A stretch of DNA of 64,000 bases from Pseudomonadota bacterium (GTDB taxonomy: Bacteria > Desulfobacterota > Binatia > Binatales > Binataceae), in the NCBI GenBank assembly GCA_021324855.1, contig JAJPIG010000015.1, positions 186,001 to 250,000 of the forward strand, given 5' to 3'. The notes under the pieces were generated by a model. The model saw only the letters and a program-made list of their open reading frames with translations. It was not told where the DNA came from and searched no databases. A program made the position numbers and the translations under genes. Shown here piece after piece: positions 44,545-45,960 of the stretch (the stretch's first letter is position 1; each line of letters begins with the position of its first letter).

Positions 44545-45027
44545 ATGGAATTCAAATCAATCGCAATCAACAAGCCCGACGGCGTTAACGTGATCATCGG
44601 ACAGAGCCATTTCATCAAGAGCGTCGAAGATCTCTATGAGACGCTCGTGCAGGCGGTCCCCGGAATCAAGTTCGGCGTGGCCTTTTGCGAGGCGTCAGGG
44701 CCGTGCCTGATTCGGTATGCCGGGACGGACGAAGCACTCGAGCGGCTAGCGATCGAAAATGCGAACGCGGTCGCCGCCGGCCATGTGTTCATAATCGCAC
44801 TTGGCAACGCCTTTCCAGTCAACGTTCTCAACCAGATCAAAGCGGTCGCCGAGGTCTGCACGATCTTTTGCGCGAGCGCGAACCCGGTGCGCGTGATAGT
44901 CGCCGAGGAGGCGGGCGCGCGCGGCGTGATGGGCGTTATCGATGGCAGCGCGCCACAAGGCATCGAGGGCGACAAGGAACGCGCCGAACGGCATGCGATG
45001 CTGCGTCGATTCGGCTACAAGCAATGA
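44545..45027 (+). CDS. Adenosine-specific kinase family protein
   Basis: This 160-residue protein matches the DUF355 / adenosine-specific kinase family, first described in archaea. Family landmarks are FKSIAINKPDGVNVIIGQ, LYETLVQAVPGIKFGVAFCE, CLIRYAGTDEAL, and the C-terminal MGVIDGSAPQGIEGDKER. Length is complete. The role in bacteria is not well settled and may be nucleoside or cofactor related. It is 48 bases upstream of the candidate selenoprotein rhodanese, on the same strand. Confidence 0.88.
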   Translation: MEFKSIAINKPDGVNVIIGQSHFIKSVEDLYETLVQAVPGIKFGVAFCEASGPCLIRYAGTDEALERLAIENANAVAAGHVFIIALGNAFPVNVLNQIKAVAEVCTIFCASANPVRVIVAEEAGARGVMGVIDGSAPQGIEGDKERAERHAMLRRFGYKQ

Positions 45028-45075: not shown

Positions 45076-45960
45076 ATGGCGCTGCACAACTGGCAGATGA
45101 TCGACGCGATCGCGAGCGTGGTTTCCGCGAGCGCAATAGTTGCCGGAACGATCTTTGTCATCATCGAACTGCGGCAGGCGAAGACCGATCGCAACTTCGC
45201 GATTTCATCGCATCTGTTTGAGCTCTGGCAGAGTCCCGAGTTCCAAAGCGATCAGCTATTTTTGCTGCACAAACTTCCGGCAAGCGACTGGCAGACGTTC
45301 ATCGGGCTTGGACGCGGAGAAGATGCCGAACGCGCGTTCCATCGCGTGGGTGGCTTTTACGATCGTGTCGGCCATCTGGTGCTGAAGAAGTTGATCAAAC
45401 AGGAGGACATTCTACCTACTATCGGCGGCGACGCGGTCGCGGTATGGACCCGGATTGAACCGCTGGTGCGCGAAGCGCGCCGCAACGAAAATCCGTTTCT
45501 GTTTCAGAATTACGAAGCGGTGCTGCCAAGCTGTATCGAATGTTATTACCCGAACCTGGTTCGGCCGCCGGGCAATAACAGCGCTGGAGCCGGTTCGCCC
45601 GCCGCTGAAATTACTGACGAACAGGATGTGAAGCGGATAGAACCGAGCGAGCTCTATGAGTTCGTGCGCGCGGGAACCGCGACTGTAATCGATGTAAGCG
45701 CGCACGATAACTCGGAGCGCATCGAAGGCGCTGTTCGCGCCACGCCGAACGAAGTCAGCGGATGGCTCAAGCTGATCAAAGGCAACGAGGCGATCATCGG
45801 CCTCTACTGTACCTGAAACAATGAAGCTTCGAGCGCCCGTGCGGCGCGGATGTTAAGCCGGGCCGGTGTCAAGAACACCGCGGTGCTGCGCGGCGGGCTC
45901 GAGGCGTGGGAAGCGGCCGGTCTCCCGATCGAGCGGGTGCCGATGGACTTATCCTCCTGA
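45076..45960 (+). CDS. Membrane-anchored rhodanese-like candidate selenoprotein with in-frame UGA
   Basis: The gene encodes 294 residues if the TGA at 45814-45816 is read as selenocysteine 247. The first 246 codons hold an N-terminal helix (ASVVSASAIVAGTIFVIIEL), a helical domain of unknown function (about 35-165), a short linker, and the start of a rhodanese domain (EPSELYEFVRAGTATVIDV, then IIGLYCT). After the UGA the same frame continues NNEASSARAARMLSRAG, VAVLRGGLEAWEAAGLPI-type, and a clean end at 45960. Cysteine homologues have C-x-C-P-N-E-A at this place, so UGA replaces the second Cys. A SECIS-like hairpin follows. Reading the UGA as stop would lose half the catalytic domain. A mutation is the alternative. 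Confidence 0.82.
45833..45847 (+). promoter_or_regulatory. Candidate bacterial SECIS hairpin for the rhodanese-like gene
   Basis: GCGCC (45833-45837) pairs with GGCGC (45843-45847) around the loop CGTGC. The loop starts 21 bases after the UGA, and its second base is G. Both values lie within the usual bacterial SECIS range. The stem is short, five GC pairs. Confidence 0.55.

Follow-up and report, generated by a model that had tools for sequence, protein, structure and literature searches.

Selenoproteins of the CxU rhodanese type have been given as predicted families, with NF041203 named among them, in one review (PMC13188914), where their table entry reads "Rhodanese-like domain-containing protein form 3", and they also appear as a family in a second review (PMC9312934). 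For other selenoproteins, domain fusions have been described (PMC2398784). The gene analyzed here carries a rhodanese loop of this known type, as the earlier note on this DNA had recognized, and fuses it to a DUF4760 domain. The helical partner had been called unusual. The same fusion was not met in our literature search, DUF4760 itself turned up in one of the papers listed, and none of the open-access literature matches listed ties DUF4760 to rhodanese or selenium. The best NCBIfam match of the fusion protein is NF041203, with 70.1 bits for the whole protein and 72.1 bits for the rhodanese part. Both scores are below the cut-off of 115, so that the protein formally falls outside this model. 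Because of this score and the lack of the DUF4760 fusion in the literature searched, we file the protein as a very probable selenoprotein and a new form within the CxU rhodanese kind, and not as a member of NF041203.

Gene structure and relatives of the fusion

The gene is located on the plus strand at positions 45076-45960 of the window, which is the whole stretch of 64,000 nucleotides analyzed. It consists of an ATG at 45076, 246 codons, a TGA at 45814-45816 and 47 more in-frame codons that lead to the stop TGA at 45958-45960, in base-for-base agreement with the single frame, interrupted by a TGA, that had been claimed before. Downstream of the first TGA the frame reads NNEASSARAARMLSRAGVKNTAVLRGGLEAWEAAGLPIE up to the terminal stop. 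A translation with the standard table stops at codon 246 and the active site is lost, whereas read-through would yield a protein of 294 residues with selenocysteine (Sec) at position 247. With the UGA translated as a residue, Pfam assigned a DUF4760 domain to residues 20-149 (PF15956; 45133-45522; 34 bits, cut-off 25, E 4e-8) and a rhodanese domain, which spans the UGA, to residues 190-281 (PF00581; 45643-45918; 35.2 bits, gathering threshold 22.2, E 1.8e-8). The motif LPxCxEC at the end of DUF4760 is invariant in all seven fusions found. It contains the CxxC motif C153-I-E-C156 (45532-45543), which lies just N-terminal of the linker and is also present in a DUF4760 protein of genome G032 that is discussed below.

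The active-site loop of the fusion is YCTUNNEAS, a C-x-U/C loop in which the NEA-type motif is present. Sec247 precedes the second Ser of SSARAA by six residues, and reading by eye revealed the same spacing between the UGA of a DedA-type copy and its matching Ser, which indicates that the in-frame UGA occupies the position of the catalytic Cys in the rhodanese loop. Cys245 of the C-T-U motif (45808-45810), two residues N-terminal of Sec, is invariant in the seven fusions and is likely to be the resolving thiol. Among solved structures four rhodanese-type sequences were matched, the best being 6mxv (E 2.4e-6). An AlphaFold model built from two sequences reached a mean pLDDT of 39, a quality at which the positions of Cys245, Sec247 and the CxxC motif cannot be judged, and PADLOC gave no match.

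Kyte-Doolittle analysis in combination with a charge count identified an N-terminal hydrophobic helix at residues 12-30 (45109-45165), with no K/R before it and three within the 15 residues after it. A single N-terminal hydrophobic stretch was found in all seven fusions, again with no K/R before and two to three after it, if start codons are set by eye. The membrane anchor proposed in the earlier note fits this helix in the whole set, and the charge pattern suggests an N-out, C-in topology with a C-terminal part predicted to be cytosolic.

A search of the 41 genomes of the family resulted in matches in eight, seven of which have both domains in a single frame. Codon 247 is TGA in five genomes from four genera (the source genome G000, G022, G023, G028 and G021; G000 and G022 belong to the same genus), TGC (Cys) in G036 and TCA (Ser) in G037, the last two being from one genus. 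The genes for PMM and GMP and a small gene are located 5' of the fusion in the same order in G000, G022 (as L039, an identical contig of 24743 bases that was counted once), G036 and G037, and these common neighbors identify the Cys and Ser versions as orthologues in place. The fusions of G023, G021 and G028 are found at other genomic locations. The small gene lies just 5' of the fusion at 44545-45027 (+) of the window and is retained there in G022, G036 and G037; it presumably belongs to an adenosine-specific kinase-like family. In G037 the fusion (L037 / L125) combines TCA at the Sec codon and an intact hairpin with a TAG inside the frame and the deletion of two codons; this seems to be a decaying copy reflecting a probable recent loss of the Sec gene, or an assembly error. 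As a single orthologue exists with Sec, with Cys and with Ser in the same family, it is possible to follow Sec replacement and SECIS decay.

Outside the family, no fusion was found among 148 genomes of the class, where the extra matches were two rhodanese parts with one internal TGA each. The same is true for a sample of 395 genomes of the phylum, in which 25 of the 27 match rows comprised the rhodanese part only and the other two were G000 and G023. A tree of the DUF4760 domains gave good support for the pairs G000/G022 and G036/G037 only.

Probable selenocysteine at the in-frame UGA

The source genome (3.75 Mb, 96% complete) contains all parts of the Sec pathway that were searched for: a tRNA-Sec with anticodon UCA (71.7 bits), SelA (579 bits) and SelB (370 bits), both above cut-off, and SelD (L025:12136-13206 (+), G000:C35), which scored 398 bits with the selD model once its own UGA (U26) was read through. 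The selD gene is located immediately 3' of selB, while selA and the tRNA-Sec gene are on other contigs. Two more matches above the Rfam tRNA-Sec cut-off were assigned to tRNA-Leu and tRNA-Ser by ARAGORN. With its UGA at codon 26, selD also counts among the candidates for selenoprotein genes. SelA is above cut-off in 38 of the 41 family genomes including G036 and G037, hence a loss of the pathway does not explain the loss of the UGA in these two genomes.

A putative bSECIS hairpin, GCGCC-CGUGC-GGCGC, is located at 45833-45847. Its five-pair stem starts 16 nt and its loop, beginning with CG, 21 nt after the UGA, exactly as had been noticed from the sequence before. Judged in a single sequence this hairpin is weak evidence, as such structures are common by chance in GC-rich DNA. 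In a control with 12 ORFs of the window taken as genes, 432 of 3829 codons (11.3%) had a hairpin of -7.5 kcal/mol or better, and 318 of 1000 synonymous recodings of the segment do as well as the real hairpin. The local fold is not exceptionally stable (z 0.66), and Rfam gave no match at the hairpin.

The comparison of relatives was based on 48 distinct UGA rows, consisting of the five fusions and 43 other CxU rhodaneses of the phylum. From the 25 phylum loci L040-L064 we left out L045, which is without the motif, and from the 30 loci L065-L094 five without the motif (L073, L074, L079, L083, L094) and six duplicate sequences. Rows with another codon were obtained from 26 stop-free NF041203 rows, 16 of which had a loop readable by pattern, seven of these with Cys; with G036 and G037 included, the numbers are eight Cys rows and ten rows with another residue.

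All five pairs are formed in 47 of the 48 UGA rows (L090 forms four), and the hairpin is present in each of the five fusion genes with UGA. The fully paired stem was found in one of the eight Cys rows (L110) and in one of the ten rows with another residue (G037), some of which may be out of register. For UGA versus Cys rows, Fisher's test gave a p of 2.7e-7 that is not corrected for relatedness. The Cys copy of G036 has lost the loop-closing pair, and the Ser copy of G037 retains the whole hairpin. L110, a CxU-rhodanese relative from G182, has TGT (Cys) at the site and keeps all five pairs, which perhaps reflects a recent change from Sec to Cys.

The stem also covaries. The covariation score is 0.268 compared to 0.130 +/- 0.016 after shuffling, and none of 500 shuffles reached the real value. 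Paired cells make up 99.6% in the true register and 21-63% in slid registers, with the slid register +3 showing seven further pair types versus six in the true one. Of the 48 UGA rows, 46 have AGC or AGT as codon 6 and 45 have GCC as codon 7. The third base of codon 6 varies in concert with that of codon 10 (U-A 24, C-G 21, U-G 2 and C-A 1), so that the covariation falls mostly at synonymous sites. Furthermore, a G is found within the first two loop bases in every UGA row. The covariation supports the assumption that the hairpin is a bSECIS common to the CxU rhodaneses sampled.

Over the 41 codons compared downstream of the UGA, all 21 pairs, ten of them UGA-UGA pairs, have a higher pS than pN; the pairs lack independence, and the synonymous sites are close to being saturated. 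A C-terminal part encoded by a separate gene, which the earlier note had considered as a counter-indication, was not observed in any of the seven two-domain relatives, where this part is always in-frame, and the stand-alone CxU rhodaneses carry the UGA within the domain.

Two other readings of the UGA have to be weighed against this evidence. If it were a real stop, we would be dealing with a truncated gene or a pseudogene, and with a frame behind it that is debris or the result of a sequencing error. TGA does function as a stop in G000, since the terminal codon of the gene is also TGA, and the relative in G037 has the appearance of decay; but a UGA at the identical codon in five genomes of four genera with a retained rhodanese half, the excess of pS over pN behind it and the covarying hairpin make this very improbable. 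Even less credible is a read-through that does not involve Sec, either by a near-cognate tRNA or under an altered code in which UGA means Trp or Gly. The frame would be open under such a code, but the gene itself terminates at TGA, a relative has Cys at the site and neither Trp nor Gly occurs at codon 247 of the seven fusions, and the Sec pathway together with the covarying hairpin also argues against it. Insertion of selenocysteine at 45814-45816 is thus strongly supported as far as sequence comparison permits, and the gene is very probably a genuine selenoprotein gene. The interpretation given in the earlier note is thereby supported: the UGA is kept in five genomes and replaced by Cys in G036, the pathway is present, and the hairpin is conserved and covaries among the UGA rows.

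Possible function of the fusion protein

In the mechanism we propose, SelB would be guided by the hairpin after codon 247 and insert selenocysteine at the UGA, and translation would run to the stop at 45958. One N-terminal helix would hold the protein in the inner membrane, with DUF4760 and the rhodanese domain predicted in the cytosol. Sec247 would stand in for the catalytic Cys in the rhodanese loop and may be linked to Cys245 in a selenenylsulfide. The CxxC motif (153/156) is likely to follow as the second thiol pair of a relay by which Sec is re-reduced. Such a protein could be a selenol-based redox enzyme at the membrane, with sulfane sulfur, persulfides or peroxide-type oxidants as its substrates, and not a classical thiosulfate:cyanide sulfurtransferase, an assignment to which we give slightly less than even confidence.

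It is also possible, though somewhat less likely, that the selenoprotein acts as an ordinary sulfurtransferase, in which Sec247 would take up sulfur from a donor such as thiosulfate and pass it on to an acceptor, and in which DUF4760 would serve as an anchor only. This is in line with a rhodanese domain with Sec at the catalytic position and with the presence of another rhodanese in G000, VTT/DedA-fused, that also has a UGA at the catalytic Cys. In contrast, the fusions have a conserved acid in the loop U-x-x-E-A-S, whereas the corresponding loops of thiosulfate and mercaptopyruvate sulfurtransferases are basic or rich in glycine, and this acid (NEAS) in combination with the C-x-U pair argues against plain thiosulfate:cyanide transfer. 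The conservation of C-x-U and CxxC is suggestive of dithiol-type redox chemistry, and the fusion of a DUF4760 domain with the same CxxC to AhpC/TSA in G032 also points away from a simple anchor.

DUF4760 was matched in 16 of the 41 family genomes. CxxC is present in 8/8 DUF4760 proteins fused to a redox domain (the seven fusions and the G032 protein) and, from reading the sequences by eye, in 0/8 of the others, which also have no rhodanese part. The restriction of CxxC to redox-fused copies is a hint of a possible role of DUF4760. The G032 protein (L038:949-2214 (+)) has DUF4760 with CxxC fused to AhpC/TSA and no rhodanese, and in the tree it is placed beside G028/G021 with support below the threshold of the tool. 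One might speculate that DUF4760 with CxxC is a membrane-anchored redox adaptor with an exchangeable output module, a CxU selenocysteine rhodanese in most species that possess it and AhpC/TSA in another (G032), and that CxxC passes electrons on to a selenol on the cytosolic side of the membrane, but we consider this rather unlikely at present. If true, the redox-adaptor DUF4760 would be part of a kind of selenoprotein relay that has not been described so far, and the pair of genus g15 would represent a Sec-to-Cys conversion with bSECIS loss in one copy and a decay of the Sec gene with retained bSECIS in the other.

Comparison with known rhodanese selenoproteins

The source genome has two further rhodanese-type genes with a UGA. 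In the VTT/DedA-rhodanese (L026:2257-3258 (-), G000:C22) the UGA takes the place of the catalytic Cys (IURTQKRS), and the stem of a 7-bp hairpin starts 10 nt after it, which makes this gene a candidate for a second selenoprotein rhodanese. A third candidate (L027:3166-3624 (+), G000:C5) is rhodanese-like, with a signal-like N-terminus, the loop YCTNLHUMAS and a 7-bp hairpin (-13.7 kcal/mol) after the UGA. In these two genes and in selD the UGA is followed by a hairpin of 6-7 pairs whose loop starts with G and lies 17-22 nt further on, each judged in a single sequence, where such hairpins are common by chance. Among the NF041203 relatives, L098-L101 and L106 (from G408, G253 and G334) have Ser in place of Sec or Cys (YCASPNEE, YCSSPNEE and similar); G253 and G334 also have UGA-bearing NF041203 rows, and the two G408 rows are without UGA.

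The G000 DedA/VTT-rhodanese resembles the fusion in that its rhodanese is tied to a membrane domain and has a UGA in place of the catalytic Cys; it differs in the type of membrane domain and in its loop, which is without CxU. TsoB (NF045694), described as rhodanese/DsbD fusion-like in PMC13188914, is likewise a rhodanese selenoprotein with a fused domain, but there its motif is UxxxxU and the partner is a different one; the fusion protein reaches 15.8 bits against the NF045694 cut-off of 805. The closest relatives are the CxU rhodaneses (NF041203, rhodanese_LYCAU), which have the same YC-x-U loop, mostly followed by x-x-E, the UGA at the catalytic position and the same hairpin 16 nt after the UGA. 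In 38 of the 43 UGA rows of stand-alone CxU rhodaneses a simple heuristic found a hydrophobic stretch resembling a signal sequence a short way N-terminal of the domain, whereas the rhodanese of the fusion follows DUF4760 and is predicted to be cytosolic. The CxU rhodanese selenoprotein loop is already known; the DUF4760 fusion with its conserved CxxC, which was not met in the literature searched, extends the CxU rhodanese selenoproteins by a fused form with a predicted membrane anchor.
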